A stretch of 52,853 bases of DNA from a virus: IMG/VR virus record IMGVR_UViG_3300032722_000027, positions 1 to 52,853 of that record; one strand, written 5' to 3'. Positions 8,555 to 29,507 of this stretch are shown piece after piece (positions within the stretch are counted from its first letter, which is position 1; each line of letters begins with the position of its first letter). The notes under the pieces were generated by a model. It searched no databases. It was not told the DNA's origin and worked only from the letters and a program-made list of their open reading frames with translations. The translations under genes and the position numbers were made by a program.

Positions 8555-9163
8555 ATGCGTACCGTTTCCATTTATGTGCGAGCGTGGCTTTGTTTCGCAA
8601 CGCTGGCCATCATCATTGTTGGCGCCGCCTGCCTTGCCGCTGACGCCGCGCCAGATGCCCCCAAGAGCCCCGCGGCCGTTCAAGCCATGGCAACCCATGA
8701 TGGCGCCCTCAAGCGGGCCAAGGAAGCCTATGATGCTGCCGTGGCGGCTGCTGACCGCAAGTACCTGTCGGACCTGCAGGCGGCATTAAAGATTGCCAGC
8801 AGCAACGGCGCCACCGACGAAGTGGTGCGGATCTTCAGCCAGATCAAGGCGGCGCAGCCGAATGCCGCCAATGACGCAGCCAACGAGCAGGCCCTGCGCG
8901 AGCAAGTCCTCGGCTGCCGGCGGTTCGTCTATGCGCTCCGTGGCTCCGGAAGTAAAGAGTTGGAACTCCTACGGGACGGCAGGCTCGGTAATGGCGTTGG
9001 TGGCTGGGAAAAGAGTTGGAGCGTACAAACCAAAGACGGCCGCGCCGTCCTGGTGCTTGACGGCGAGCGCGGCCCGGCAACGCTCGTTCCCGTCGGCGGC
9101 GCGTTCAAGGGCACGTTTGATCATGGCGCCAGCGCCGAGATCACCCTCACGCCAAAGCGCTAG
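8555..9163 (+). CDS. Secreted coiled-coil protein with Planctomycetota-style motif
   Basis: 202 residues from the ATG preceded by AAAGGAG. A signal peptide is clear: short basic start, hydrophobic core LCFATLAIIIVGAACLA, and cleavage likely near AADAAPDA (~25-32). Residues ~45-90 hold a helical pair, AYDAAVAAADRKYLSDLQAA and ASSNGATDEVVRIFSQIKAA, a layout I associate with exported proteins of Planctomycetota. The C-terminal ~75 residues are beta-rich with a W-x8-W spacing (DGRLGNGVGGWEKSW). It is convergent with, and overlaps by 17 bases, the large glycan protein. A periplasmic or surface role is inferred. Confidence 0.7.
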   Translation: MRTVSIYVRAWLCFATLAIIIVGAACLAADAAPDAPKSPAAVQAMATHDGALKRAKEAYDAAVAAADRKYLSDLQAALKIASSNGATDEVVRIFSQIKAAQPNAANDAANEQALREQVLGCRRFVYALRGSGSKELELLRDGRLGNGVGGWEKSWSVQTKDGRAVLVLDGERGPATLVPVGGAFKGTFDHGASAEITLTPKR

Positions 9164-12161
9164 CGCCAAGTCCTGGCAAATGCCGCGCGTTAAACCCATC
9201 GATAATTTTCCGCATGCTGGTATCCGGCAAGGGCACCACGCGGCGGCGGCTCATGTCGGGCAGTCCGATGTTCGAGAGGTAATGCCCGTATTGCGCGTAG
9301 TTGATGCCGAACCGCGGATCCTCGGGCCATTTGGCCGCGAACCGCGCCCGGGCCACGCCATAAGGAAGGGCCTTTACCGTTCCTCCATGAACGCTCCCCG
9401 ACAAGGGATTCATCTGCCGGAAACGCCAATAATGCAGGCCCGCGACCATCACGCGCATCGCGTAATCATCATCCTCGCACCAGGCCGGGGAGAATGCCTC
9501 GTCAAAAAGTCCGACGCGTTGATAGGTCTCCGGGCGGTGCATGTGGATGTCGAAGGCGCTGCCCGACAAAAATAAATGGATGTCCGGCCGTTCCACCAGC
9601 AGCCGGCGCGCGGCCTCAATTCGATAGGTGTCCCATTTGATGTCATCGCCCAGGATGATCAGCCCGTCAAACTTGTCCCGCTCAAAGGCCCTTTGCAGGA
9701 AAAAGTTCCACGCGGCCGACACTCCGACATTAGCCTCCGCCGTAACGATCTCGACGCCGGGCCCGGCCGGTAGCCGTATGTTCTGGCGGCCGTTGTCCAG
9801 AATCAGCAGCCGGTCCCCGGGGCGCAGGTTGGCCGCCATCTGGGCATAGTTGGCGTTGAGCAAATCCGCGCGGCTCAGCGTGGCCGTCGCCACCATGATG
9901 CGGGGCGGCTCGGAAATGTGGATCGGCTCCACAGACTCTACCGGTGACATCTGAGCCAACAGTGTGGGTAACTCAAACGGAATCGCCACGCAGGCGACAT
10001 CATTCTGGCCCCCCGTAACAGTCACGCGGGTACCGTCGATAACCATGCCATTGATAAATATGCACCCCGGCCGCTTATTGGGGCAGCGCCCCGGCGCGTG
10101 GGCGGGCGTCATCACCGGCGCCGCGGAGATCTTCAAAATGCGGAACGGGAATCGCCCCTCAAACACGTAAAAGCCGGTGTGGTAGCCGCCGTTGCCCTTT
10201 GTATAGGTGTGGAACGTCCCCAGAAAGTCGCCATCGGCCATGCGCACCGGCGGCGCGCTCAGACGCAATTCGTATCGAAATGCCGTGGACCATCCCGCTG
10301 GCCATTTCCAGTCGTTTTCGGCCACAAGGTGAACTTTATCGCCGCGCACCTCCAAGATACGGTGGGGCTGCATCCATTGAATGAAATAAAGCCGGCCGTC
10401 CGAGGAAAACGGCACCCAGTTCTTTTCGTGAACCAACTCGTAAAGCGGATCATCTTCAATCTTGTTAAAATGGGCCACCGGCACCACCGACTGAAAATCG
10501 GAAGATAGCCTCCACAACTTGATGCGTTCGGTGGAAAATCCATTCTCCCAGCAACTCGTGGACATGTACACATCGCCGTTGTGCGCCACCAATCGCGGAT
10601 CGTCGTTGCGCTCAAGGCCGAGCACCCGCCAGGAATCGCGGCTTGCCCCCAAGGCCCCGTTAAGATCGATTGCCGCAATGGGGTTCCTGCGGTTGAGTCC
10701 CGAGCGGTAAGCACCTATAAGCCTGTCCGGGCCCAGGCGCAGCACGGCCATGTTGTAGGGGGCATCCTCTGGCAGGGCTATTTTTGTGATGGCAATATCG
10801 GCAACCCGTTCCGCCGTGTTCACCAATGCAGGAAGCGTCGGTTTTGCCACCTCCGGGGCCTTAGGCTTTTCCTGTGTGTACAGGCCCGACGTGCGTTCCC
10901 TGGCCACGTCGATGTTACCAAACTCGGCCCTGGCCAGGGCGATCGCGTTCTCATATTTAAGGAAGGGGAACGCCTTAAGCTTGCTTTCAGGGTTGCAATT
11001 GAACACCTGCAGGCCTTGGCGCTCGAGGTATGGCCGTAGGTCCGTGAATCGCCGGTTGATCACCGGGTAGCTCGCGTTATTGCCGCGGACGCTGGAATCG
11101 CTGGGCTTGTGGTCAAAGTGGTATCCATAGTCGGCTGACATGGTGAAATCCACTCCCAACAGGAAAATACGGCGGATGCCCAACTCGTACAGGATCCGGA
11201 CGGCTGCGAACATGACCGATCGGCCCGCTTCCCCATCGGTGCCCCACCAGATGGCTGGCGACGTGAGAAAGTTGGTAACAGGGGTCGCGGATCCTTTCGG
11301 TCCCAAGTCCCGGTCATAGGCCAGCAGGTTGGGACTGTCCTGGATGCGCTGGTCAGTCCACTCCCACTTATCGCTGTCGAAAAGCCGCTGCCCCAGCAGG
11401 CCCCGCGGGCTGAACTTCATGATCAGGGGGTCGAGGTAAATCGACCGGATGAAATGATCCGACTGGTCAACGTGGGTGGCGATGTTGGGCCGGAAGGTCC
11501 GCACGCTGTTGTTCACACCCATCGTGAGGATGCCCGGCTGTCGCAGCAGATTGTGGTCCAGCTTTTTGAATGAAGGACCGCCGCAGATCAGGAAGGCGCT
11601 ACGGCCGCGGTACAGCCCCTGTATCTGGACCGTTCGGCCATCAGGATGGTAAAGCGGCATGGGGCCAGCGGCCTTCGCCGGCGGGGCTCCGAATTTTCCC
11701 TTCGGGCAGGTGTTCTCCGCGGCGCGGTCCACACAGGGCCGATGGTCGATGCAATTGCGCCGGTCCCGGTGGTCACAATCGTAGCAGAGCAGCCGGTTGG
11801 CCTGTTCTCGGTCTGAAAGTTGGTCGGCTGGAGGCGGCGCCGGTACGGACCCCAAGGCGCTGAATTTGCCCATGGGGCAGAGCCCCTCGATAAGATGCAC
11901 GCGATGGGCGCCGTTGCAGTTGACGCAGCGCCGGCAGTGCGCGTGATCGTCAGCGAACCGCCGTTCGCCTAAATGCTCACAGGCCCCGCAGATGGCCATA
12001 ACTTCCGCCACCCGCCGAGCCTTTACTGCCGGGTCGGTCTGCCATGGAGACGGTGCGGGGCGGTACGGTTGCTTTGGGGGAATCGGCACGCCGGGGCCAT
12101 AGGTCACCTGTTCGGGTGTCCCGTAGGTTGGCGCATCTCCAAAATGGTGGATCATCTTCAT
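9147..12161 (-). CDS. Multi-domain glycan protein: Cys-rich / DUF115-like / GH130-like propeller / GT2-like
   Basis: 1004 residues in one uninterrupted frame. Residues 55-155 contain two Cys/His-rich units, each closing in CPxGKF. Residues ~172-405 resemble a DUF115/MAF-type nucleotide-sugar domain: GRSAFLICGGPSF (186-198), GILTMGVNN (210-218), HVDQSDHFI, GIRRIFLLGVDFT (328-340). Residues ~470-735 look like a five-bladed GH130/GH43-type propeller (GLERNDDPRLV at 515-525, GFYVFEG, MVIDGTRVTV). Residues ~754-965 are GT2-like: MVATATLSRADLL, GDD-x3-D at 838-844 as a DxD equivalent, and FDEAFSP-x3-CEDDDYAMRV (886-904) as the ED motif. It is the last gene of the structural operon, coupled by ATGA to the Ser-rich protein. 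A role in building or trimming glycans on the virion or host surface is inferred. Confidence 0.75.
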   Translation of the reverse strand: MKMIHHFGDAPTYGTPEQVTYGPGVPIPPKQPYRPAPSPWQTDPAVKARRVAEVMAICGACEHLGERRFADDHAHCRRCVNCNGAHRVHLIEGLCPMGKFSALGSVPAPPPADQLSDREQANRLLCYDCDHRDRRNCIDHRPCVDRAAENTCPKGKFGAPPAKAAGPMPLYHPDGRTVQIQGLYRGRSAFLICGGPSFKKLDHNLLRQPGILTMGVNNSVRTFRPNIATHVDQSDHFIRSIYLDPLIMKFSPRGLLGQRLFDSDKWEWTDQRIQDSPNLLAYDRDLGPKGSATPVTNFLTSPAIWWGTDGEAGRSVMFAAVRILYELGIRRIFLLGVDFTMSADYGYHFDHKPSDSSVRGNNASYPVINRRFTDLRPYLERQGLQVFNCNPESKLKAFPFLKYENAIALARAEFGNIDVARERTSGLYTQEKPKAPEVAKPTLPALVNTAERVADIAITKIALPEDAPYNMAVLRLGPDRLIGAYRSGLNRRNPIAAIDLNGALGASRDSWRVLGLERNDDPRLVAHNGDVYMSTSCWENGFSTERIKLWRLSSDFQSVVPVAHFNKIEDDPLYELVHEKNWVPFSSDGRLYFIQWMQPHRILEVRGDKVHLVAENDWKWPAGWSTAFRYELRLSAPPVRMADGDFLGTFHTYTKGNGGYHTGFYVFEGRFPFRILKISAAPVMTPAHAPGRCPNKRPGCIFINGMVIDGTRVTVTGGQNDVACVAIPFELPTLLAQMSPVESVEPIHISEPPRIMVATATLSRADLLNANYAQMAANLRPGDRLLILDNGRQNIRLPAGPGVEIVTAEANVGVSAAWNFFLQRAFERDKFDGLIILGDDIKWDTYRIEAARRLLVERPDIHLFLSGSAFDIHMHRPETYQRVGLFDEAFSPAWCEDDDYAMRVMVAGLHYWRFRQMNPLSGSVHGGTVKALPYGVARARFAAKWPEDPRFGINYAQYGHYLSNIGLPDMSRRRVVPLPDTSMRKIIDGFNARHLPGLGASALA

Positions 12162-12847
12162 GTCAGAACGAGCGTCCCGGTTTGGTACGAAAACCCATAT
12201 CCCGCGAAACCGCAGAGTGAGTTGGTGAAGGTGTCATAATGGGCCCACGTCCAGGCGCTCGATGGGCTCGATGTCGAGGACGTGATCCATGACAGCCCGG
12301 AGAGTCGCCACCGGCAGGACGGTAAATCCAACCCAATGGTGATGGCTATCGTCTGGTCAATCTCCTGACAGGATGACCCGTCAGTGTTTTTCGTAGAGTT
12401 GTGCACGGAAATGCTGCCCTCGTACTGGCACAAGGCGGCATTCCATGTCAAAGTTGCTGTCGCGTTGAGGGTCTGGTGGTTGTACAGCAGGTAGGGTCCG
12501 CCAACCGCTATCGCAAAGGAAATGTCTTGCGTCCATGCCGTCATTTGAATCGTCGCTGGGGGGCTCGATGGACATGTGCATGGCCCGCTACTCTGGTGAC
12601 TGCTGATATGCTGAGAGCTTTGATGCTGGCTCGATGGAAGGTGCTGCGAACTCCCGACGTGTCCAGAGCTTTGATGCTGGCTCGATACGTGGTGCTGAGA
12701 ACTCGCTTGTTGGCTGCTGCCGCTCTGAATGCTCTGCTGGCTGCTGTGGGGATGACTGCTCTGGTGGCTATGCACGCTCGATTGGTGGGAATGGGCCGAG
12801 GATTCCGTCACGGACGAATAGGATTTAGAACTACCAAGGTCGGTCAT
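12158..12847 (-). CDS. Ser/His/Gln-rich virion-associated protein
   Basis: 229 residues. Residues ~5-90 are low complexity, built from SSxHQSS and SSQHxSS units, ending at a CTCPSSPP motif. From ~95 a beta-rich domain with several Cys and Trp follows (MTAWTQDISFAIAVGGPYLL and later CRWRLSGLSWITSSTSS). The context, between tail-region genes and the glycosyltransferase-containing protein, suggests a displayed tail appendage in which the Ser-rich stalk could be a linker or glycosylation substrate. Coupled on both sides by ATGA. Ribosome site AAAAGG. Confidence 0.65.
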   Translation of the reverse strand: MTDLGSSKSYSSVTESSAHSHQSSVHSHQSSHPHSSQQSIQSGSSQQASSQHHVSSQHQSSGHVGSSQHLPSSQHQSSQHISSHQSSGPCTCPSSPPATIQMTAWTQDISFAIAVGGPYLLYNHQTLNATATLTWNAALCQYEGSISVHNSTKNTDGSSCQEIDQTIAITIGLDLPSCRWRLSGLSWITSSTSSPSSAWTWAHYDTFTNSLCGFAGYGFSYQTGTLVLT

Positions 12848-14337
12848 ACCTTTTCCCCTGGGTACGCGCTGCGGATGAAAGCTTCATTGGCTGCAAACTG
12901 TTCCGGCGTTCTGCTCGGGAACCGCAAATCAGAGAAGCCCTTGCGGATGCCCGTCAAGCGCAGCGTCAGCGTCAATCGCCGTTTGGCTTGGCGCCCAAAC
13001 CGGACATGCACCTTGCCGCCCTTCACCACGGCGCCCACTGCCACCGGGCAATCTGCCACAGCGCCGCACACTTGCACGCTGCCGGGTTCGCATACCTCAA
13101 CGAACCGCGGATCGATGGTGATCCGGCAATTCTTCTGCGGAATCTGCACGGTCAGCACGTCATCGAACCGCACTTCCGGCGATTCCGCGATGAACAAGGC
13201 CGCATACCCGGTCTTACTCCAAGTGGCCGGCACGATGGCCGTAGACTTGGAACTCTGTTCACTCGGGGCATGCGATTGATGCGACGGCTGGCTCTGTTGC
13301 GAGTGCTGAGACGATGGGCCGCTGCTTTGCTCGCTACTCTGCTCGCTGCTTTGCTCCGAAGATTGCTCGGAACTTTGCTGGCTGCTCTGCTGAGAACTTT
13401 GTTGACTGCTCAATTCGCCCCGGCAGCGATGGCCAGTATCGGTTTCGTCCATGTAGGCGGTGTACCAGCGAATCATGGGCGGCGTTCCGCTGTCGCAAAT
13501 TGGCCAGACCGGAACGATGGTTCCCGGACGCACGAAATGCGTCTGCTGATTTTCTTCCGCCATGTTGGTGACCGGCACGATGAAATCGCGCAACGGCGGC
13601 GGTGATGTCGTATCGTCGCCCGGGCAGTAGTGCGGGACTTTCGGGGCGTTGATGAATTTCAGCGGACTTTTGGCGTTGCCGTCACTGTTGGAAACCAGCA
13701 GCATCTGGCCCCAATATTGGTTGGTAATGAAGTCCGGATCGGCACTGCACCCGCAAGGACCACAGCATACCACCCTCGCAAACATGGCCGGTATGGTGTG
13801 CTGGAATACCCAATGCAGAACGGCCGTGCCATCGGCGTTGCGGGAAGCCATCTGGCGCACGAACACGTACTGGCTGCCATCGGTGCGCAACAGGTGCGTG
13901 CCCATGGGTTGCGGGTCGTTGTCGCCCGGCGTTGAGGACTTCACGGCCAGCGGGCCGGTCAATTCGTCAATGTTGGTGGCGGTGAAGATCTTGGCTTCGG
14001 TATCGGTTTCCTTTTCCGCGTTGGCCATCGAAGTGCAAAGATCGTCCTTTTCCTGATGCAAAAATGCGAACTTGAACCAGTACCGCGGGTCGGCATAATC
14101 CGGCTCGCTATTAGGGCCTTGGCGCAACAGCACCGCCAGCTTCCAAGGGAACGGCGAAACTTCTTTTGGCCGTGATACCGATGATCCGCCGCCCTGTATC
14201 GACTCGACAAGCTGACCCGGGCCGCCCATCGTGGGCAGGTATGCATTTGTGCGGTCAACATGCTTGGCCAGCATGTCGGCCAGCGCGTCAAACTCTGGCA
14301 CGTTGGAAATGGGGGTTGGAATATTGGGGAGGGCCAT
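12844..14337 (-). CDS. Tail-region structural protein with SSEQ/SSQ linker
   Basis: 497 residues from the ATG (MALPNIPTPISNVPEF); a TTG 15 bases upstream is a weaker choice. Residues ~1-300 form a globular domain with a CCGPCGCS cluster near 195-202. Residues ~305-370 are a repetitive SSQQ/SSEQ stalk. The last ~125 residues are beta-rich (VRFDDVLTVQIPQKNCRITI, then GGKVHVRFGRQAKRRLTL). The two-domain architecture with a flexible stalk fits a tail-tip or appendage protein downstream of the tape measure. Function is not recognised from the sequence alone. Confidence 0.65.
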   Translation of the reverse strand: MALPNIPTPISNVPEFDALADMLAKHVDRTNAYLPTMGGPGQLVESIQGGGSSVSRPKEVSPFPWKLAVLLRQGPNSEPDYADPRYWFKFAFLHQEKDDLCTSMANAEKETDTEAKIFTATNIDELTGPLAVKSSTPGDNDPQPMGTHLLRTDGSQYVFVRQMASRNADGTAVLHWVFQHTIPAMFARVVCCGPCGCSADPDFITNQYWGQMLLVSNSDGNAKSPLKFINAPKVPHYCPGDDTTSPPPLRDFIVPVTNMAEENQQTHFVRPGTIVPVWPICDSGTPPMIRWYTAYMDETDTGHRCRGELSSQQSSQQSSQQSSEQSSEQSSEQSSEQSSGPSSQHSQQSQPSHQSHAPSEQSSKSTAIVPATWSKTGYAALFIAESPEVRFDDVLTVQIPQKNCRITIDPRFVEVCEPGSVQVCGAVADCPVAVGAVVKGGKVHVRFGRQAKRRLTLTLRLTGIRKGFSDLRFPSRTPEQFAANEAFIRSAYPGEKV

Positions 14338-14348
14338 GACGTATCCGA

Positions 14349-15218
14349 TCAATTCATGACGGGCGGGATCATGCCGTAATTTTTAACCCCTGGCTCGATG
14401 CCGGGGAACACAACGGAGAAATCCACTTCAAGGGCGGAACGGATGCGCACCCAGCCATTGCCACCAAAACGCGAGCCATCGACCACCACATCCGCCGCCA
14501 CCTTGTAGGGTATGATGCCATCCTCATCCTTGTAGAATACATACTCGTCGTGCGTTTCAGGGCGGTAGTGAATCGTGTACTGGTTGTCGTACCACACATT
14601 GTCATGGCTGGAACCCGTTACGGGCAGGATCATAAGCGTGCGCGGTGCGTAGCCGCGCCACTGGAACTTATTTACGCATCCGGCGAAGTTGAGGTTGAAG
14701 AACTCCGGGTCAAGGATTTCGAGGAAGCGGTATCCAACCGTGCCGCTCAGGATGGTACGGTGGAAGATGCCGCCTTGGCGCAATGCGGTGCCGGTCGTGG
14801 TGAACGTACCCTTGTCGTTCGGGTCCGAAGTCCACGTCACGTCGCCATCAGGCGAGTAGACCAGCGACATTGGATTGCCCTTGCCGTTGGTGCACCACTC
14901 GATCTGCCGCAACGATCCGCCCACGGTTTTCAGGTACGCTGATGGGTACAACTTCCATTGGTATTTGATGATGACGTTCATAACGTCATAGGCTGGATCT
15001 GACGTACTGCGCTCAACCACCACGCCTTTAAAAGTTGGGTCAGGATACGGCTCAAGCATAGAAGGCACGCCCGGTGCATTCATAGCAGCAATTTGGCGTG
15101 ATTCCGGGGGCACATCATGCAAGCCGGAAACCTCAAAAATTCGGTAAATGTTCGACTCTGTTAAATTGGCATCGGCTCGGCTAGGGCGAATTAAATCTGG
15201 TTTTACCACAATGGCCAT
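14349..15218 (-). CDS. Tail-region structural protein (289 aa)
   Basis: Start taken at MAIVVKPDLIRPSRAD, one base after the tape-measure stop, with GAGG upstream. Beta-strand-rich throughout, with aromatic/Gly patterns such as FNLNFAGCVNKFQWRGYAPR, KDEDGIIPYKVAADVVVDGS and GNGWVRIRSALEVDFSVVFP. Its place directly downstream of the tape measure corresponds to distal-tail/tail-tip genes in siphoviruses. The family is not recognised. Confidence 0.65.
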   Translation of the reverse strand: MAIVVKPDLIRPSRADANLTESNIYRIFEVSGLHDVPPESRQIAAMNAPGVPSMLEPYPDPTFKGVVVERSTSDPAYDVMNVIIKYQWKLYPSAYLKTVGGSLRQIEWCTNGKGNPMSLVYSPDGDVTWTSDPNDKGTFTTTGTALRQGGIFHRTILSGTVGYRFLEILDPEFFNLNFAGCVNKFQWRGYAPRTLMILPVTGSSHDNVWYDNQYTIHYRPETHDEYVFYKDEDGIIPYKVAADVVVDGSRFGGNGWVRIRSALEVDFSVVFPGIEPGVKNYGMIPPVMN

Positions 15219-15219
15219 A

Positions 15220-17832
15220 TCAACCTCGACTCCCGAAGATGGCGGTACTGACCTTGCCATGCGTAGTGGCTTGCAGAAGTTCAATGATCCTTTGGAGCTT
15301 CACGTTCGTTTCGCGTTGGATCTCATCCTTGGAGTCTGCTCCGCCCACATGCCCCGCCAGTCCACGCGCGATGGCACTGAACGGGTCGCCCGCAACAGAG
15401 AATGGGGCACCCTTGGGCTTTAGATCCTCTTGCTCGCGTTGCAGCACCAGAATCTCGTTCAGCCGCATCTTGTCGCGCAGGTCATCGTCGCCTTGCTCGT
15501 TGATGGCCTCGATGGCGCTTTGGGCTTGCTCAAGATCGGCCCCCTGTTGCTGCTTGGCGCGGCGCCCACCGGGATTCTTGATCTTGGCCGCGTCAAGGTC
15601 GGATTGGTCACGCAGGCCCATGATGTCGAGGCGTTCGGTTTGGCGGCGTTGTTGCTCCCCCGCTTCTACCCATTTACTGTAGGCCTCGTCTGCGATTTGT
15701 TTGCGGGCATCTTCTTCGTACGACTCATCCGTGAGCGCCAAGCCTTGATCGTCCTCAATATCCTTGGCTTTCATGTTGGCAATCCGTTGTTGGAGCGTAT
15801 CGCGGATCTGGCGTTTCTCCCAGTCATTGATATTATCGAGGGATGCAGATAATCCGCCATAATTGCCCGTAGCCACATTGGCTCGCCGCGCCATGGTGTG
15901 CTGCTCATCCTCCTGATTTTGTGCCGCATACGCCTCAGTAATCTGAATCGCCTGCTCATTGGCGCCGGCCGCCGCTACGCCAGCCTGCGCATGCTGTACC
16001 GCCAGCCGCGCCGCCTCGCTGGGATTATTGGCGAAGTCCGCATTGGCATAGGCCAGTTCCGCTTGTGCGTCAATGGTCCGCTGCTGGGCCATTATCATTT
16101 TCGCCGCCAGCCCGGCGCCCTGCGCCCGCAGCACCGACTCTTGAGCCGCCGCATTCAGATCATCTGTCTCGGCCACGATCTTGAGCCGCATCAAATCAAT
16201 CTGACGTTCGCCTAAGGCGACTCGCTGCTTGGCTTGTTCTTCCTCCTCATTCAGCCGGCTGCGAGATTCCTGATCGGCACGCATCGTCAACGCGCCAGGA
16301 TGGGCGTGCAGTTCGATGTCGGCATTGGTTACGTCAGCCTGCAGGGCGCCACGGCGCTGCGTGTTTTCAGCAGCAATCTTCTGCCGTATGGCATCAAAAG
16401 TATCGCCGGAAACGCTCGACCGTAAGACGCCAGTTTGCATAGCTTCGGCGCGATCGCGCGTGGACATGGCATCAAGTTCAGATTGGCTCTTCATGTCCAA
16501 AATCTGCTGCTGCTCGGCTTGGTCCTTGACTTGTTCTTGCTTTATGCTGTTCCGTTGCGCGTTCGCCCTTGCATGGATTTGGGCTATCTCTGGAACGTCT
16601 ACATAGTCCTCTTTCTCAAAACTGTACATCCTCTTTTCTGGGAGTTCATTAATTTCGTTCGCTTCTGCTGCACCTACGGCATTCAATTGCTCAGTGAACG
16701 GCTTGGCACGCTCCGTCATCTCAGTACGGGCATTTTCCTGCAATCGCAGGTAATTCATCATCAAAGGATCATTGGTAGCGCCCATGTTGATCGCTTCGTT
16801 GCGCGTGCGAGTCTGCTCGATCTGCACCGCCTGCTGGGCTTTCTGTTCCTGGGTCTGAATGTTCATGTCGCGTTCAATATCGGCGGCGCTCATGCCGTTG
16901 GCCGTGTCGTACAGATCCCGTAGCCCCGCCAGCGGAGCGCCAACAATAGGAATGGACCGCAACGCCCCCATTTCCGCCTGATGCGCCTTGAGCGCGGCCT
17001 TGACGCCCGAAGCCGGATCATTACCCGCCTCCGCAACGTCCACATCACGACCGGATGTAATTTCCTCCGTTACCAGCGACTCCACTGCCGCGATAGCCGC
17101 GCCCGCCGCATGGGCGATGAAAATGGCGCGGATTCCACGCAATCCGTTGCCGCCACGAGCACCGCGACCACCAGTCGCCCCCCCCGCTCCGCCGCCATCG
17201 TCTTCGTTGGCGTTGTAGCCCCGTTGGGGCATGCTCGCCCATTCGTCGGGCGGTTCCCCCGAACCCAGCAGTCTCGGCCCGACAGGACGCCATTCCGCAT
17301 CAATCACATCGTCGGGGCGCCATTGCGCCCCATCGGAAAGCCCCCCAGCTTCCGCCCGCCACACTTGAAGCCGTCGGCTGATGGCCTCGATTTCCATCGT
17401 GGCCGCCGCCGTGTTGGCACCCATCGACGCCGCTGCTGTTGCCACGGCGGCGGCCGTAGCCGCCACGCTGGCCCGCGCGGATTCCTGCGCCGCATTTACT
17501 GCATTTTTCAGGTTATCGACTTCCGCCGCGACCCCTCCGCCCATGCCGCCGCTAAAATCGAAACCGCTGTAGCCCCCGGCGTTGCCCGTGGAATACCCCG
17601 GCGTGCCGGTAGCGCCCACGGAAGTACCGCCGCCGTTATTGTTGAATCCCCCAAACCCGCTACCGCCGCCCCCGCCACCCATCCCCAGCCCGATGTTTAG
17701 CGTGTTGGCCCTGGCCTGCATCCGGTCGATGGACGCGTTGACCAGATCCTCAGCGTCTTTCACGGACGCAACGGTGGCTTCCGTCTTATTGAGGATGGAG
17801 AACCAGAGATTGCCAAGATCACCAGCCGACAT
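15220..17832 (-). CDS. Putative tail tape measure protein
   Basis: 870 residues, the longest protein of the tail block, almost entirely helical and Gln/Glu/Ala-rich, with a Gly-rich insert near 50-100 and a second near 215-230. A hydrophobic segment (RAIFIAHAAGAAIAAVESLV) sits around 235-255, as tape measures often have. The C-terminus reads RETNVKLQRIIELLQ, typical of tail-length or scaffold coiled coils. It follows the tail-assembly chaperone pair, the canonical siphovirus order, and overlaps the second chaperone frame by 14 bases. If the usual ~0.15 nm per residue holds, the tail would be roughly 130 nm; this is an inference. Confidence 0.8.
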   Translation of the reverse strand: MSAGDLGNLWFSILNKTEATVASVKDAEDLVNASIDRMQARANTLNIGLGMGGGGGGSGFGGFNNNGGGTSVGATGTPGYSTGNAGGYSGFDFSGGMGGGVAAEVDNLKNAVNAAQESARASVAATAAAVATAAASMGANTAAATMEIEAISRRLQVWRAEAGGLSDGAQWRPDDVIDAEWRPVGPRLLGSGEPPDEWASMPQRGYNANEDDGGGAGGATGGRGARGGNGLRGIRAIFIAHAAGAAIAAVESLVTEEITSGRDVDVAEAGNDPASGVKAALKAHQAEMGALRSIPIVGAPLAGLRDLYDTANGMSAADIERDMNIQTQEQKAQQAVQIEQTRTRNEAINMGATNDPLMMNYLRLQENARTEMTERAKPFTEQLNAVGAAEANEINELPEKRMYSFEKEDYVDVPEIAQIHARANAQRNSIKQEQVKDQAEQQQILDMKSQSELDAMSTRDRAEAMQTGVLRSSVSGDTFDAIRQKIAAENTQRRGALQADVTNADIELHAHPGALTMRADQESRSRLNEEEEQAKQRVALGERQIDLMRLKIVAETDDLNAAAQESVLRAQGAGLAAKMIMAQQRTIDAQAELAYANADFANNPSEAARLAVQHAQAGVAAAGANEQAIQITEAYAAQNQEDEQHTMARRANVATGNYGGLSASLDNINDWEKRQIRDTLQQRIANMKAKDIEDDQGLALTDESYEEDARKQIADEAYSKWVEAGEQQRRQTERLDIMGLRDQSDLDAAKIKNPGGRRAKQQQGADLEQAQSAIEAINEQGDDDLRDKMRLNEILVLQREQEDLKPKGAPFSVAGDPFSAIARGLAGHVGGADSKDEIQRETNVKLQRIIELLQATTHGKVSTAIFGSRG

Positions 17833-19554: not shown

Positions 19555-19965
19555 TTAATTGGTTGACCGTTGAACGCGAAATTCATGCACGCACAATGCG
19601 TGGTACAGCTCGTTATTGTCGTTGTCGTATTTCATGGAGCACCGTGGCGGATCGTTGCGTATCACGCTGAGGCAAACGTCATTGGGCATTGATAGTGAGG
19701 CGTAATCGAAGATGCGGCATACCTGTTCAATCTTGGCGAGGGCGTCCAGGTACGAGCCGGAGAATATGTCCGTCTGGATCTTGACGTTTTCGATGTAATC
19801 CTTGAGGCCCATCACATGCACATTGCCGCGCCCGGGTACAAAACTGAATCGGGCATAGGGGCGGGGCGTGCCTTCTGGTTGCTGGCTGAAAAACGGCGTC
19901 CCGATGGCCGCCAACGTGGCATCTGATTTCCATTTGTTCTGATAAGCGATGCTGAGTTCCTGCAT
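19555..19965 (-). CDS. Tail terminator-like protein
   Basis: 136 residues. The pattern fits minor tail/terminator proteins: an N-terminal helix (QELSIAYQNKWKSDATLAAI), PYARFSFVPG, a strand VKIQTDIFSG followed by a helix YLDALAKIEQVCRIFD, and a C-terminal strand LCVHEFRVQR. The gene order (after HK97 gp10-like, before tube) agrees. The start overlaps the preceding stop. Confidence 0.6.
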   Translation of the reverse strand: MQELSIAYQNKWKSDATLAAIGTPFFSQQPEGTPRPYARFSFVPGRGNVHVMGLKDYIENVKIQTDIFSGSYLDALAKIEQVCRIFDYASLSMPNDVCLSVIRNDPPRCSMKYDNDNNELYHALCVHEFRVQRSTN

Positions 19966-20357
19966 TAGAGACTCACCCCCGCCCGCACGATAGCCGGGAT
20001 CGTGTCTTTGGCTCGGTCCATGGCCGGGCTCATAAACGGGTACGCGGCGTTCTTATCGGTGCCAAACTCCAAGTCGAACGGCACGTTTTCACTGGCCCCA
20101 TCATCAGTGGCGCGGCTGCTGACAATCCGCTCGGTCAGGGCAAAGTCGTCCTCTTCGGTGAAGTGCCGCACGCCCACAAACAATCGGCCTGTCCGCAGGT
20201 ACGGCGTTTCGCTCGGGTGGCTGTAACGCTCCATGCCCATCGGGAAAGCCGTATCAAGGGTGTCCTCGATATCCGAAACGATTGCATCGCCAATCATGCC
20301 CATCGTGTCGCGCATTAGCGGCATCAGCATCGGGATGGCCTGGTCGGAAATGCTCAT
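19965..20357 (-). CDS. HK97 gp10-like tail-completion protein
   Basis: 130 residues from MSISDQAIPML (ATGA overlap with the upstream gene; the longer frame to 20384 is an unneeded extension). It shows an 'RTGRLF' segment, 'FDLEFGTDKNAAYPFMSPAM' and a terminal helix, the usual signature (RTGxL ... EFGTxxxxxxPFxxPA) of HK97 gp10/tail-completion proteins. These act at the neck, joining tail and connector. Confidence 0.75.
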   Translation of the reverse strand: MSISDQAIPMLMPLMRDTMGMIGDAIVSDIEDTLDTAFPMGMERYSHPSETPYLRTGRLFVGVRHFTEEDDFALTERIVSSRATDDGASENVPFDLEFGTDKNAAYPFMSPAMDRAKDTIPAIVRAGVSL

Positions 20358-20752
20358 GTGATTTTCTCCATCAGCACTTTCCACATCCGACCCTGCCCGC
20401 CCATATCGGCCGGAGCAATCGCCCGGTACTCCGACATGTTCGGGCTGCCAACCAATCCCGCCACGACCTTGTTGCCCTCATTAATGCCCGACAGGTCCGT
20501 CATGGAAAACAGGTTGTAAATGATCGACTCATTGCGCCGCCCGATGTTCGGATCAGGCCGGATGCCGCGACCCTGTACGGAAAACTGCGGCTGGATATTG
20601 CACGCCAAGTTGCTCAGAATCGCCGTTGGGATCCGCACCGTACCGCCGCCCGCGTCAGCCGTGGGCCGCATGGCGTAGACGGTGGCGGTGTGGGTGGACA
20701 TGATATCGTCCGCCAGCAAACCGCCTTGCGAGATGTCAGCCAACAGGCCCAT
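20354..20752 (-). CDS. Head closure / head-tail joining-like protein (132 aa)
   Basis: Begins MGLLADISQGGLLADDIMST, followed by strands TATVYAMRP, LACNIQPQFS, IIYNLFSMTD and YRAIAPADMGGQGRMWKVL. The beta-barrel-like pattern and location between the capsid-side connector gene and gp10-like gene fit a head-closure (gp16/gpFII-like) protein. Assigned mainly by synteny. Confidence 0.55.
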   Translation of the reverse strand: MGLLADISQGGLLADDIMSTHTATVYAMRPTADAGGGTVRIPTAILSNLACNIQPQFSVQGRGIRPDPNIGRRNESIIYNLFSMTDLSGINEGNKVVAGLVGSPNMSEYRAIAPADMGGQGRMWKVLMEKIT

Positions 20753-21202: not shown

Positions 21203-22303
21203 TTACGAAACCGTCAGGCTCCAGACCACCAGGCCGTTCTTGATCGTCGGCAGGAAATAGTCGCCGCTGATCGCCTTGAGCTTGATCGGGTCGGTGCTCA
21301 TCGTGGCATAGGCGAACTTGCCGTTGACCACCTTGACATTGGTGAGCAACTGTTCGATGTTCTGCGCCTCGCTGGCAACGGTGGTCGGGATCAGGGTGCC
21401 GGCCTCAAAGAACTCATACCAGTTTGGTTCCAGGTCAGGGATGACCACAATCTGATTGTCGGCGAACCACTGCTGCACGGTGCCGGCCGAATCGACATAG
21501 TAGTTGTTGTAAGCCGGGAACCACTCGAAATCGAGCAAACCTTTGGGCACTTCGTTGGTGTCCATGAACTGCTGATTGAGCATCGGTTGCCGGCTCAGGT
21601 ACGCCTGCATCGCGGTATTGCCGTACAGGTATCCGGGGATGGCCTTCCCGTACAGGATTTTGACCGGGTTGTAGTTGCTGGTCGCGCGGAACGATTCCCG
21701 CAGCGTGCGGAGTGAACTGGGGATGTCGGTGCTGGCGCTCGACCAATCGCCCACGGCATAGGTGGAGACGTTGGGGTAGTTGGTGGCCTTGGTAAACGCC
21801 TGAGTCCCGAACGAGACGGTCTGCACGGCGCCGCTGGAGGTCGAAAGGATGTTGCCGCTGCCATCGGCGTAGATGGCGCCCTTGGCGAAAGCGGAGCACA
21901 CCAGCGTCTTGCGCAGGTTGTCCTGGCGTTCGCGGAAGTCAGCCATGCGGCGGGTAAATTCCGCCTTCGCCTGCATTTTGACGTAATCCACGCCGCTCAT
22001 GAGTTGATACAGGAAGTCCTGATCGACCACGAAGTGCTCGCGGGTGCCGAGGGCGGTGGCATACTGCCAGTTGGCGCCAAGCACTTCGACTTCCCGCGAA
22101 CCGGAAGCCTGGTGGACAAGCTGTGCGGTGGCCCGGTTGCCCTTAAATTGCTTGAACTTGATCTGCAAGCCGACCGGCTTCTCCGGCGACGGCGTGAGAA
22201 CGCCATCGGGCATGTACAGCGGCAGGCCGCGCTTGATCGCTTCACTGTTGGCCAGTTCGGTCATCACCGGGCCGGCGAAGAAGTCCTGTAACGTCTGTCC
22301 CAT
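21203..22303 (-). CDS. Major capsid protein (lambda gpE type)
   Basis: 366 residues, strong ribosome site AAGGAG. The sequence follows the capsid-E family pattern: an N-terminal arm (TLQDFFAGPVMTELANSEAI), a long E-loop helix (FTRRMADFRERQDNLRKTLV), GDWSSASTDIPSSLRTLRES, then the characteristic GTVQQWFADNQIVVIPDLEP and a C-terminal strand set. Length and neighbours (protease upstream, terminator downstream) agree. It forms the HK97-fold shell. Confidence 0.88.
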   Translation of the reverse strand: MGQTLQDFFAGPVMTELANSEAIKRGLPLYMPDGVLTPSPEKPVGLQIKFKQFKGNRATAQLVHQASGSREVEVLGANWQYATALGTREHFVVDQDFLYQLMSGVDYVKMQAKAEFTRRMADFRERQDNLRKTLVCSAFAKGAIYADGSGNILSTSSGAVQTVSFGTQAFTKATNYPNVSTYAVGDWSSASTDIPSSLRTLRESFRATSNYNPVKILYGKAIPGYLYGNTAMQAYLSRQPMLNQQFMDTNEVPKGLLDFEWFPAYNNYYVDSAGTVQQWFADNQIVVIPDLEPNWYEFFEAGTLIPTTVASEAQNIEQLLTNVKVVNGKFAYATMSTDPIKLKAISGDYFLPTIKNGLVVWSLTVS

Positions 22304-24763: not shown

Positions 24764-26893
24764 CTATCTGTATTCAACGTCGCATCGGCAACCGCCGTGC
24801 GTATCAACCGTGGGCCATGGGCCAAGCATCGGATCAATTTCTCGCCCTTCAAATCCGAGACATACAAGGCAAGTCTTTTCATCGTGGACGCAAACCCAAT
24901 AGCCTTTCAGGCCAAGTTGCTTATTGCCATTGACTTCGCCAATCACGCTGGCGACGTAAATCTGATCGCCCGCAATCTTACCGGCGCGGACCTTGTTGAA
25001 CCACCTGCCATCAACCTTGCCGCCCTTTTTCTCCCAGTGTTTCAGGGTGGAGGCGTTGACTTCTTTCGCTACGTCGCCAGCAATCTTGGTGATACGTTCA
25101 TTGGCGGCATCAATGGCCGCATTCGACAAGGCCGCAGGCGCCGCCGGGTATTTCGCCAACGCAGATTGCACGTTCTCTGCTGCCTCATCTCGCATGGACG
25201 CCGCCAACAGTGCCGCAAGCGTACCGTCGGCATCATCCGGCAGGGCTCCGTTTGTTTTGAGTGCCGCCTTTTGATCGGCGAACAGCAGCAGAAGCAGGGC
25301 GATCAAATCCCGCTCCCGCCTGGTTTTTTTTTCGGCATCGTCATCTTCCACTGAAAGGGCCAGCGATTCGCCCTTGGGAGTTCCGATGTTGACCTCTTTA
25401 TCCTTCTGCTGCTGCTTCAGAAACTCGGCGGCAATGGCGTTGGCATCAAATTGAGCATTTGGCTTCACGCCCGTTTTGGCCATGACGCTCAAAGCGTCAA
25501 CACACCGCAGAAACATCATCGGTCCTTGCGGTCCAGAGAAAAGAGACTTGATAATGTCCTGCTGCAAGCCAAGTTGGCTATCCTGCATAGGGCTGATCTT
25601 GCAGACCACCAATCCCACATAAGCGGGACCGTGGTTTTGATCCAAGTAGGTATCCACCACCTTGTTCATTTCCCGGCAAATCTTTCCGCCAAACGGCTCT
25701 TGAATCTGGACCGCCACACCGCCATGCGTTTCGGAATCGGCCTTGCTGCTGGTGCGGGCCTCCAGGATGGCCCGCGCCGGCGTCAGGTGCCCCATGCAGA
25801 TAGCCCGGTCCAGTTTGTCCCACAGGATGCTGATGCCCTGCCCACTGTCATTCTTGGTGTCGATGAATCCGAGTTTGTACGGGTTGACATCATCCGACTT
25901 GAGCCCCTTAAGGATCAGTTGCTCGGCATGTTTGGCGAACGGGTTTGGGATGATGGCGGTTTGCCCGTTAGCCAGTGCGTTGGCAAACGTCAAAGCGTTC
26001 TGCTGGGCCGTGGCGTCAAGGCTTTGGCCTTTGCCGTCGCGCAGCCCCATTGGCCATTGCACATAGGGGACCGAACGGCAAAGGATGTTCAGGCCCGATT
26101 CCAGCAGGTCGTAAAGTTGTTCGGCTCGAGCCCACGCCTTTTTGTAGTTCTCTTTGCGGGACCGTCCATAAGGGTTGATACCGCGATCATCGTGCGTGAT
26201 GCGAAATACCCGGCGCATGTCGAGAATTTCCACCCCCTGATTTTCTATGCCAAGCACGTTGCCATGCTTGTCCGTCATGAATTGCGTGCCAATGATCGAT
26301 GCGTAACTGCCCACGCCGGGGAATCCAGCCGCGCCCCAAGGCCCAGCCCGTAGCAGCGTCTTAAACTTCTTCACGCTGGTACGCGCCGGGCGGCCGTTGA
26401 TGCCGGGGCGGTTCTCCCACACGATTTCGGCAGTGTGGTTGCCGTCATCGCGAGCGCGGGGGCAGATGTCCAACCGCTCGGCTGCATGGGGGGAAAACTC
26501 TGCCGTAACCTCTTTTACCAAATCCGCCAGCGCCGCCGCCCCAATCTGATCGGCCGCACCGGGGGCGCCCTCGAAGGACATTTCCGCGGACCGAATCGGC
26601 GCGTCCGATGCCGCCTGGCAAAGCGCCACCGTTGGGTTGCGGTCCATCAGATCGTAATTCCAGAACGTCCCCACGGGAACGCCGTAGCCATTCATTTGGA
26701 TGGAGCCGAAGGACGTATACCCGCCAGACCACGCGCCCGAGCCGAATGGCGCCACCGCCAGCCCAAGACCGGCGGCGAAGATGCTGAACTGGTCGGGCAT
26801 GGCCTCGCCGGTCGCCACGGGGCCGCTGGTGATTGCCCGGTCGATTACCATGCCGCCGCCCGTGCCGATTCCGATGTTTAAATTATCTGCCAT
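24764..26893 (-). CDS. Portal (DUF935-type) fused to a MuF-like domain
   Basis: 709 residues. Residues ~60-480 follow Mu gp29/DUF935-like portal features: DLMDRNPTVALCQAASDAPI, FRITHDDRGINPYGRSRKEN, YKKAWARAEQLYDLLESGLN, ILWDKLDRAICMGHLTPARA. Residues ~560-709 contain the minor head protein pattern: helices then DEKTCLVCLGFEGREIDP and DTHGGCRCDVEY (Cys/His zinc site of MuF proteins). These are usually two genes, so this is a portal-MuF fusion. The start overlaps the terminase stop (TAATG), with GGAGC upstream. Portal subunits form the DNA channel and MuF-like domains are ejected or bridge head and tail. Confidence 0.8.
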   Translation of the reverse strand: MADNLNIGIGTGGGMVIDRAITSGPVATGEAMPDQFSIFAAGLGLAVAPFGSGAWSGGYTSFGSIQMNGYGVPVGTFWNYDLMDRNPTVALCQAASDAPIRSAEMSFEGAPGAADQIGAAALADLVKEVTAEFSPHAAERLDICPRARDDGNHTAEIVWENRPGINGRPARTSVKKFKTLLRAGPWGAAGFPGVGSYASIIGTQFMTDKHGNVLGIENQGVEILDMRRVFRITHDDRGINPYGRSRKENYKKAWARAEQLYDLLESGLNILCRSVPYVQWPMGLRDGKGQSLDATAQQNALTFANALANGQTAIIPNPFAKHAEQLILKGLKSDDVNPYKLGFIDTKNDSGQGISILWDKLDRAICMGHLTPARAILEARTSSKADSETHGGVAVQIQEPFGGKICREMNKVVDTYLDQNHGPAYVGLVVCKISPMQDSQLGLQQDIIKSLFSGPQGPMMFLRCVDALSVMAKTGVKPNAQFDANAIAAEFLKQQQKDKEVNIGTPKGESLALSVEDDDAEKKTRRERDLIALLLLLFADQKAALKTNGALPDDADGTLAALLAASMRDEAAENVQSALAKYPAAPAALSNAAIDAANERITKIAGDVAKEVNASTLKHWEKKGGKVDGRWFNKVRAGKIAGDQIYVASVIGEVNGNKQLGLKGYWVCVHDEKTCLVCLGFEGREIDPMLGPWPTVDTHGGCRCDVEYR

Positions 26894-28437
26894 TACAAAG
26901 CTCCTGTCGTTACCAAACCTAAACCGTCAATCGGTTCCAAATGGTCACCATCAACGATCCCCACGTAACTGAACACATCGACCGTATCGTCGTGGGCACC
27001 GTTGGGGAATGCCATCAACTCCGCAATCAGAATCAGCACCCACGGTGCCACTTCCGGCTTCGGGAAGTAGAAGTGCCCATTTTCCATCTTGATCGCCGAT
27101 TGACCGGATCGCGTCACCTTGTCTCCGTCAGCTTCCAGTCCGAGAATCGCCACCCCGTCACGGACGAACTGTTGCACGACTGCCGTGCCGTTCTGTTTTT
27201 TCTCGATGTAGAACCGGCGCAGCGAGCGCTTTATCATCATGCTCTTGATCGCCGGGCCGATGTCGGGATGCTCCAAGCGTTGCCGCAACAGGTCCAGCAG
27301 CAGAATGTCATGGTCCAGTGTGGTAGCGACCGAGAGCAGGGCGGCGTAGTCCGCCGTTTCCTTGAGCGACATGGCCAGATCGCCAACGCCGTAGCGGTCA
27401 TCAATATCGCACTTCATGACTCGCCGGTCGCCGCGCTCAGGATCGTGCAGAACATAATGGTCCTGTTCTTCGGTGTACCAGCGAATCCACGCCTCTTTGA
27501 ATTGGCCGCCGCCGGCGGGGTTTGGGCGCTGCTGGTGCTGGCCGGCAAACGCCGCGGGCCGCAAGCGAAATTCCTCATAGTCGATGGCTGATTTGGGGAA
27601 CTTGGCAGGAAACAGCAACTCGCAATCTTCTTTGCGGGGATCTTCAAACTGCCGAATAACGGTCTTGCCGTTAACCATTTTGATGCCCAGCGTGGTCCGA
27701 CTCTTGTTAGACGGGTCAAAGCGGCTCGGCAGACATAAGTGTTGCCAGTTGCCCCATTTACCTTCCGCCAGAACGTGACCGCTCAAATCTTCTTCATGTA
27801 GCCGCTGCATGATGATGACGCGGGCACCAGTTACAGGATCACTCAGGCGGTTGGCAATGGCTTCATCCCACAGTCGCAGGCATTCCGCCCGCACCAAGTC
27901 GGAATTGGCATCCTTGACGCTAAGTGGGTCATCCACCACAACATAATCGCCGCGGTGGCCAGTGGAACCACCCTTCATGCCGGCCGCCTGACGGAATCCA
28001 GTGGCGTCATTGGCGAGGTAGGCGTCAGAATCTTGCGTGAGTTTCCATTTTGGCCGGAAGGTTTTTTGATACCAGTCCGACATGATAAGCGCACGGCATT
28101 TGCGGGAATCACGGATGGCAAGGTCTTCGGCATAGGACCAGAACAGCCAGCGTTTTCCGGGGCTTTTGAGCCATACCCAGCACGGCCAGAACACGCAGAC
28201 CAGCATTGACTTCATGTGTCCAGGCGGGATGTTTATCAGCAAATTCTGGACGCGGCCTTCTGTCACGGCTTCAAGATGGTCGCAAATTGCCTTGATATGC
28301 CAATTGTCAACGAACGGCGTTGAGGGCTCCAAGACGTGCCACGCCTGTTTGACGAACTCGTGCAGGCTGCGCCGGGCAAGGGCTGCTTGCACAAGATCGT
28401 CGGGCGGAAGATCGGGCATTTCCAAGGCTACAGACAT
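26893..28437 (-). CDS. Terminase large subunit
   Basis: 514 residues from the ATG with GGAG six bases upstream (an ATG at 28449 would add four). ATPase: an unusual Walker A, NIPPGHMKSM (69-78), Walker B YVVVDDPLS (165-173), coupling motif in IIMQRLHEEDLSG. RNase H-like nuclease domain: MKCDIDDRYG, Asp/Glu residues around DILLLDLLRQ, and the C-terminal GAHDDTVDVFSY metal site. Packages DNA into proheads with the portal immediately downstream. The small-terminase candidate is separated from it by a 2-kb module. Confidence 0.9.
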   Translation of the reverse strand: MSVALEMPDLPPDDLVQAALARRSLHEFVKQAWHVLEPSTPFVDNWHIKAICDHLEAVTEGRVQNLLINIPPGHMKSMLVCVFWPCWVWLKSPGKRWLFWSYAEDLAIRDSRKCRALIMSDWYQKTFRPKWKLTQDSDAYLANDATGFRQAAGMKGGSTGHRGDYVVVDDPLSVKDANSDLVRAECLRLWDEAIANRLSDPVTGARVIIMQRLHEEDLSGHVLAEGKWGNWQHLCLPSRFDPSNKSRTTLGIKMVNGKTVIRQFEDPRKEDCELLFPAKFPKSAIDYEEFRLRPAAFAGQHQQRPNPAGGGQFKEAWIRWYTEEQDHYVLHDPERGDRRVMKCDIDDRYGVGDLAMSLKETADYAALLSVATTLDHDILLLDLLRQRLEHPDIGPAIKSMMIKRSLRRFYIEKKQNGTAVVQQFVRDGVAILGLEADGDKVTRSGQSAIKMENGHFYFPKPEVAPWVLILIAELMAFPNGAHDDTVDVFSYVGIVDGDHLEPIDGLGLVTTGAL

Positions 28438-28545
28438 CGCGGGCTCCATGCCCCGCGCGCACCACCCGCCCCCAACCGAACGCTACTCTACCGTTCGCTT
28501 TTTAGAATTGCAACCTTTGCACCGCAAAGTAAGTGGCTTGGCGAC

Positions 28546-28769: not shown

Positions 28770-28798
28770 TTGCATTTATAGCAGAATTCTGGTATAGT
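28770..28798 (+). promoter_or_regulatory. Sigma70-type promoter for the recombinase
   Basis: TTGCAT (28770-28775), 17-bp spacer, TATAGT (28793-28798), about 28 bases before the recombinase start and inside the XRE/recombinase divergent region. Confidence 0.65.
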
Positions 28799-28826
28799 GT
28801 CAATGATGAAGTTGAAAGGGGAAGAA

Positions 28827-29507
28827 ATGACCAAGGCGTACTCTTACCTGCGGGTTTCGGGAATTGGTCAGGTGGCCGGCGACGGGTTCCCTCGCCAGCG
28901 TGCCGCCATTGCGGCCTACGCGGCGGCACGCGACCTTTCCATTGAACGCGAGTTCGTTGAGGAGGGCGTCACGGGCAAAATGGAAGCGTGCTACCGGCCA
29001 GCGTGGTTTGATATGCTCTTGGCGCTCAAATCCAACGGCGTGCGGACCATCATCATCGAACGTCTCGACCGGCTGGCCCGCGACTTGATGGTGCAGGAGC
29101 ACATCATCGCGGACATCCAGCGGGCCGGTATTGAACTGGTCAGCACAGCCGAACCAGACCTGGACAGCACGGACCCCACCCGCGTACTGATGCGCCAGAT
29201 CATGGGGGCCATAGCCCAATACGACCGCGCCATGATCGTACTCAAGCTCCGCGGTGCCCGCCAGCGCAAGAAAGCCCTCACGGGCCGCTGCGAAGGCGCC
29301 AAGCCGTTCGGACTGGACCCCAAGCGCCCCGACGAAGCGCCCATCCGCCAGCAGATCCTGGCCATGTGCCGCAACGGCGCCGGCTTTGAGGACATCGCCC
29401 GGCACCTGAACGCCATGGGGGTCAAGACGCGGCACGGTAAACCGTGGCTGCGCGCCACCATCCAGCACATCGCACAATCGGAACTCAAGAAAGGAGTGGC
29501 GGCTTGA
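28827..29507 (+). CDS. Serine recombinase / resolvase-invertase
   Basis: 226 residues from the ATG preceded by AAAGGGGAAG. Catalytic domain: YSYLRVSG with nucleophile Ser11, IIIERLDRLARD (conserved ERxDRLxRD), MRQIMGAIAQYDRAMI (E-helix-type segment), GRCEGAKPFG. The C-terminal ~55 residues (ILAMCRNGAGFEDIARHLNA, MGVKTRHGKPWLRATIQHIA) form the short 'recombinase' DNA-binding motif seen in transposon/phage resolvases rather than the large domain of phiC31-type integrases. It may catalyse inversion, resolution or integration. Neighbouring XRE gene and placement inside the terminase region mark it as a mobile-type insert. Confidence 0.85.
   Translation: MTKAYSYLRVSGIGQVAGDGFPRQRAAIAAYAAARDLSIEREFVEEGVTGKMEACYRPAWFDMLLALKSNGVRTIIIERLDRLARDLMVQEHIIADIQRAGIELVSTAEPDLDSTDPTRVLMRQIMGAIAQYDRAMIVLKLRGARQRKKALTGRCEGAKPFGLDPKRPDEAPIRQQILAMCRNGAGFEDIARHLNAMGVKTRHGKPWLRATIQHIAQSELKKGVAA

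Follow-up and report, generated by a model that had tools for sequence, protein, structure and literature searches.

Results

A four-part gene at the end of the late operon

The virus record IMGVR_UViG_3300032722_000027, analysed over its whole length of 52,853 bases (here referred to as the window), contains on its minus strand a frame of 1004 codons (9147-12161) that begins with ATG and has no internal stop. The predicted protein joins four parts in one chain, namely a Cys-rich segment, a DUF115/MptE-like (Maf-like) domain, a GH130-like propeller and a GT2-like glycosyltransferase domain (Table 1). The gene is the last of a late operon that is read leftward. Neighbouring genes overlap throughout the last five of this operon, with the final three overlaps being 4 nucleotides each: the start of the fusion gene lies 4 nucleotides within the end of the preceding gene (an ATGA overlap, ctgacATGAag), which likewise overlaps its own predecessor by 4 nucleotides. 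Third-position guanine-plus-cytosine content is 0.71-0.78 across the segments of the fusion gene (0.59 in the short linker), near that of its neighbours. The motifs GGPSF (residues 194-198), GVNN (215-218), NDDPRLV (519-525), GDDI (838-841) and AWCEDDDY (893-900) were located in the protein, and no transmembrane segment was found in it (maximum Kyte-Doolittle value 1.35).

Table 1. Features of the fusion gene and of the late operon
Feature	Coordinates	Strand	Basis
Whole gene, 1004 aa (amino acids): Cys-rich + DUF115/Maf-like + GH130-like + GT2-like	9147-12161	minus	open frame, 4-nucleotide ATGA overlap
Cys-rich segment, residues 58-156, zinc-ribbon-like	11694-11990	minus	sequence: two CxxC...C...CP(M/K)GKF repeats
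DUF115/MptE-like (Maf-like) domain, residues 160-432	10866-11684	minus	PHROG 4603, viral relatives, AlphaFold model
Linker, residues 433-459, following a Pro/Ala/Lys-rich stretch	10785-10865	minus	sequence
GH130-like propeller, residues 460-745	9927-10784	minus	Pfam E 9e-6, family profile, AlphaFold model
GT2-like glycosyltransferase domain, residues 746-1004	9150-9926	minus	PHROG 29879, alignment, profile
Ser/Gln/His-rich tail-operon protein (P0002), 229 aa, proposed acceptor	12158-12847	minus	25 Ser in 60 residues
Tail-operon protein (P0003), 502 aa, SSQQ/SSEQ repeat, proposed acceptor	12844-14352	minus	26 Ser in 60 residues
Tail-operon protein, 311 aa, 4-nucleotide overlap with next gene	14349-15284	minus	no family match (Pfam, PHROG)
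Tail-operon protein, 870 aa, tape-measure-like	15220-17832	minus	size and position only
Neck/connector gene	19965-20384		leftward operon
Major head protein	21203-22303		leftward operon
Portal-position protein	24764-26893		leftward operon; other head genes follow
Terminase	26893-28449		leftward operon

Domains of the fusion protein

The DUF115 part matches the PHROG family 4603, labelled 'alpha-2,3-sialyltransferase', over residues 315-409 (E 8e-10), while its Pfam MptE-like match (PF01973; E 0.013, 15.7 bits) does not reach the curated cut-off of 34.6 bits. The GPS, NN, GxD, YxF and NC motifs are conserved among 23 diverse viral relatives that we aligned. The AlphaFold model of this part (predicted local distance difference test, pLDDT, 90; predicted template modelling score, pTM, 0.87) resembles Maf (5mu5) with a Z score of 14.0 over 198 residues, M. 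jannaschii MptE (HPPK; 8sd5) with Z 10.9, and the GT42 sialyltransferases Cst-I/II with Z about 10; the family profile also matches Cst-II (E 0.0016). The predicted Maf/MptE catalytic-domain fold is well supported. PF01973 corresponds to the central domain of Maf, which resembles Cst-II. Maf O-glycosylates Ser/Thr of flagellin (PMC11339370), a modification that precedes flagellin export (PMC4065374). Both proteins share the catalytic-domain fold and look soluble, and Maf too acts on a surface filament protein. However, identity to Maf is about 12%, and the fusion sits in a phage tail context. The Pfam scan gave no match to the N-terminal Rossmann-like or C-terminal helical domain of Maf; where Maf has its own flanking domains, the fusion has the Cys-rich segment and the propeller, with the GT2 part beyond. 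GT42 enzymes share the fold class and the GPS and YxFD-like motifs, but genes for CMP-sialate were not recognised in the window.

The propeller matches Pfam GH130 over residues 519-725 (E 9e-6), with 25.2 bits marginally under the curated 26, and a profile built from six viral relatives matches a 1,2-beta-oligomannan phosphorylase (E 4e-14). Its AlphaFold model (pLDDT 80, pTM 0.86) aligns with the GH130 phosphorylase Uhgb_MP (4udg) at Z 25.8 over 263 residues and 3.0 A, and with the GT108 GDP-Man transferases of Leishmania (6q4y) at Z 21.1; GH43 enzymes score lower (Z at most 19.4). The model-based assignment of residues 460-745 to the GH130 propeller fold is well supported. N470, D521 and D721, invariant in the six relatives, align with the catalytic Asp and the mannose-binding Asn/Asp of Teth514_1788, residues whose roles in GH130 have been described (PMC4599007). 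Together with R486 they occupy positions that in GH130 act on or bind the -1 mannose and the +1 sugar, the equivalence to BT3780 numbering being presumed. The viral propeller shares with GH130 mannoside phosphorylases/mannosidases and GT108 the whole-domain fold, the EDPR-type catalytic Asp and the mannose-site Asn/Asp, but differs from them in its EKNW motif and in being fused to two glycosyltransferases in a phage. The HRR of Teth514_1788, which we take to be a phosphate-binding motif, is replaced in the viral family, where one Arg may be kept.

The C-terminal part matches PHROG 29879, 'galactosyl transferase', over residues 761-908 (E 4e-10), and its family profile matches chondroitin synthase (E 1e-4); PF00535 was not listed for this region at E 1. 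Among 25 aligned relatives N811, G813, W818-N819, D840, A893, E896-D897 and D899 are invariant, forming NxGxxxxWN and EDxD motifs, and D839 is kept in most. By its sequence this is a GT2-type domain, with metal-binding DD/DxD and catalytic ED motifs present.

The Cys-rich segment has 11 Cys within 95 residues (58-152), arranged in two repeats that end in CPMGKF and CPKGKF. Cys-rich extensions also precede DUF115 at three other loci (L193, L215 and L241). A strict regular expression for the repeat, perhaps too strict a pattern, found no case, and phmmer with the segment returned only the self-match. It appears that only Cys-richness recurs before DUF115, and homology of the segment does not.

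An earlier note on this DNA had described a 1004-residue frame with intact-looking motifs, placed at the end of the virion operon and coupled to appendage genes. The frame is open, the motifs it named are those conserved across homologues, and the gene is indeed the last late gene, tied to a tail gene. AlphaFold reproduces the DUF115-like and GH130-like folds proposed there, and the conservation of active-site motifs across homologues holds for all three enzyme regions; these results withstand the refutation that the note itself had set.

Relatives and partial fusions

A profile scan found DUF115 relatives on 128 viral contigs (34-45% identical), and a search of Planctomycetota genomes with the protein gave DUF115 domains 36-41% identical, with E values down to 8e-50. 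Most viral relatives are standalone proteins of about 270-430 residues. Several of the Planctomycetota genes lie behind tape-measure and tail genes, with glycosyltransferase genes coming next, so that a layout of tail genes, DUF115 and sugar genes is found in phages and Planctomycetota prophages alike. Neighbours that we named by eye include glycosyltransferases, UDP-galactopyranose mutase, a sugar-1-phosphate nucleotidyltransferase and a dTDP-sugar-reductase-like gene. In two phage cassettes (L164 and L165) the genes after DUF115 resemble UDP-galactopyranose mutase and a sugar-1-phosphate nucleotidyltransferase (by eye), a possible phage-encoded supply of galactofuranose.

Partial fusions of several types were found. 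First, DUF115 is joined to other partners: to a GT8-like part (by eye) in L162; to glycosyltransferase-like parts (by eye) and a methyltransferase (PF13578, E 5e-17) in a 1415-residue prophage protein (L152:7334-11581); and to a sulfotransferase-like part (by eye) and GT2 (PF00535, E 6e-9) in a 965-residue phage protein (L172:9983-12880). The last shows a sulfotransferase-like P-loop, PRSGNH (by eye), and a second PRSGSH motif, which suggests sulfated glycans. Near the L152 fusion, a 1943-residue serine-rich protein is encoded on the opposite strand. Second, the GH130-like propeller follows GT25 (E 6e-5) and a Cys-rich linker in L244 and a GT-A-like part (by eye) in L245; standalone GH130-like relatives also exist. 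In addition, the viral structure models in BFVD include GH130-like or MptE-like parts in phage and giant-virus proteins of 400-1300 residues. These large proteins share GH130-like or DUF115-like folds with the fusion, some being named LicD or fucosyltransferase, but the chain of DUF115, GH130 and GT2 is absent from them as far as seen.

That chain was not found elsewhere in the viral contigs, genome contigs and relatives' loci scanned. Pattern scans of viral and genome contigs, full-length or with GH130 only, gave nothing close; tblastn in phages and plasmids gave weak single-domain matches only; a scan of viral loci with a GT2 query gave no second locus carrying two modules; a further GH130 scan gave no additional fusion; and terminase-bearing Planctomycetota contigs (L420-L425) held none of the three modules. 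The earlier note had held that such regions are usually separate genes, had called the system potentially undescribed and had proposed a search for the same fusion in other viral genomes. Most relatives do stand alone and the exact chain is new, but partial fusions recur with other partners, so the four-part protein is no isolated oddity, and there are precedents both for glycosylated phage virions and for viral glycosyltransferases with several domains. The novelty lies in how known modules are combined, within a phage setting that recurs, and not in the principle.

Host, lifestyle and other genes of the window

Planctomycetota are the likeliest host, though the call is tentative because sampling covered Planctomycetota and a few other phyla only. 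The first strong DUF115 relatives lie there, terminase relatives from this phylum are 44-45% identical, whereas the best named phage reaches 40%, and one of the contigs in a Planctomycetota genome is a phage with a GH130-like gene (L242/L243). Adjoining the terminase gene is a serine recombinase of 236 residues (28797-29507, plus strand; Resolvase E 4e-27, plus Recombinase), whose relatives have 324 residues in L159 and 511 in L155; it may be a large serine integrase that has been truncated or interrupted, and the virus could be temperate.

Convergent with the fusion gene is P0007 (8519-9163, plus strand), a secreted-looking protein of 214 residues with a hydrophobic segment near residue 23; the 3' ends of the two genes share 17 bases. 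We compared P0007 with a protein of the relative phage L159 as a candidate relative and found no match. Elsewhere lie a DUF5131 gene (42523-43629, minus strand, E 2e-60) and a DUF932 gene (31814-32818, plus strand, E 2e-38).

Discussion

Proposed function

We propose that the protein is a soluble glycosyltransferase whose targets for O-glycosylation are tail proteins of the phage itself, with DUF115 priming Ser and the other two enzyme parts extending or capping the glycan, a reading to which we give about even chances. Made late, together with the tail proteins, the cytoplasmic enzyme would use its Maf-like domain to put the first sugar, from a host nucleotide-sugar, on Ser of the Ser/Gln-rich stretches encoded upstream, perhaps with the Cys-rich segment assisting in holding the acceptor. 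The GT2 domain would then lengthen the glycan, and the propeller would add (GT108-like) or trim or phosphorolyse (GH130-like) a terminal, probably beta-mannosyl, residue. Modification before assembly would yield virions with glycosylated tails. Catalysis, the order of the steps, the sugar and the acceptor are what we infer from the domains and their context. Of the two roles suggested by the earlier note, glycosylation of the particle is plausible and is favoured by the gene context, and masking or alteration of host sugars is less likely. The fullest form of the proposal, a one-protein tail O-glycan line in which the Maf-like domain primes, GT2 extends and the GH130/GT108-like propeller performs beta-mannosyl capping or editing on the Ser-rich tail linkers encoded upstream, and possibly the first GH130-fold enzyme to build phage-particle glycans, is doubtful as a whole.

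Ser-rich proteins, defined as having 14 or more Ser in 30 residues, lie near 8/20 non-redundant viral DUF115 loci, compared with 1/39 generic viral GT2 loci. At planctomycete tape-measure loci such a neighbour was present in 4/5 with DUF115 and 2/21 without, for which the Fisher p of 0.005 overstates independence because a single genome contributed three of the five loci with DUF115. Ser-rich proteins thus appear over-represented beside DUF115 genes in these counts, an association that is crude with both controls imperfect.

Besides this shared genome origin, several points weigh against the proposal. The viral GT2 control loci were not host-matched, and 12/20 viral DUF115 loci have no Ser-rich neighbour at the threshold used. 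At the position that we take to hold the catalytic His of Cst-II (NSHY), the DUF115 relatives have an N-N-x-x-Y-like sequence, and the His is not conserved. The propeller lacks a clear phosphate-binding basic motif. Finally, no further sugar gene was recognised among the about 45 window proteins scanned, so host sugar donors must be assumed.

Alternative explanations

The main rival, in our opinion rather unlikely, is that the enzyme remodels the host surface, altering glycans of the envelope either in lysogens or when infection is well advanced, and thereby blocking superinfection or freeing progeny. The possible temperate lifestyle agrees with it, as do the many DUF115 homologues within prophages and the PHROG classification of the glycosyltransferase matches as moron/host takeover genes. 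However, the fusion gene overlaps late tail genes and hence is no separate moron, the protein has no membrane anchor, no flippase-like partner was recognised among the scanned window proteins, and the fold matches a protein glycosyltransferase. Quite improbable is a structural or lectin use, in which enzyme folds were co-opted as a sugar-binding virion appendage with little or no catalysis: although the gene is last in the tail operon, and propellers and Cys-rich modules can in general bind ligands, the catalytic residues D840 and E896-D897 of GT2 and D521 of GH130 are invariant in the aligned families, and DUF115 relatives sit amid glycan-synthesis genes. We consider DNA modification an unlikely target, given the late tail operon and the Maf-like fold. 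That the propeller breaks down or recycles beta-mannans of the host as a supply for the linked transferases, and is no virion modifier as such, is very improbable, since its strongest matches are indeed mannose-1-phosphate-releasing phosphorylases but the presumed phosphate-binding HRR is lost in the viral family and GT108 transferases have the same fold.

Relation to known glycosylation systems

For the proposed tail glycosylation by the fusion protein, precedents of two kinds can be named. Glycosylation of serine-rich-repeat adhesins takes place in the cytoplasm, where glycosyltransferases encoded in the adhesin gene clusters, a bifunctional chain among them, carry it out (PMC5207161, PMC5063993 and PMC7948813). 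On the simplest reading, the fusion would be the phage counterpart of these enzymes and of Maf. The Fap1/GspB clusters have, as here, a Ser-rich surface protein encoded beside cytoplasmic glycosyltransferases, and two activities in one chain (PMC5063993), but there the protein is exported by accessory Sec, whereas here it is a phage tail protein, and the glycosyltransferase families are unrelated. In phages, virion glycosylation has been published for mycobacteriophages (Freeman et al. 2023, as cited in PMC10955285), and, in that citing text, the particle bears glycans and the glycosyltransferases are phage-encoded. That system was studied by experiment, whereas the single fusion here is known from sequence and models. 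The mycobacteriophage glycosyltransferases are reportedly encoded by separate genes. Our literature search on DUF115/MptE-like phage genes found no paper on the subject in the collection searched.

Few systems with glycosylated phage virions have been documented, and in these the acceptor and the enzyme order are usually not obvious. Here the enzyme and its candidate acceptor are adjacent, look soluble and should be amenable to production in E. coli, which makes the question of DUF115/MptE-like tail glycosylation directly testable. As the DUF115 family is widespread in viral contigs and Planctomycetota prophages, an answer for one member would help to annotate many genes that are now labelled 'MptE-like' or 'sialyltransferase'.

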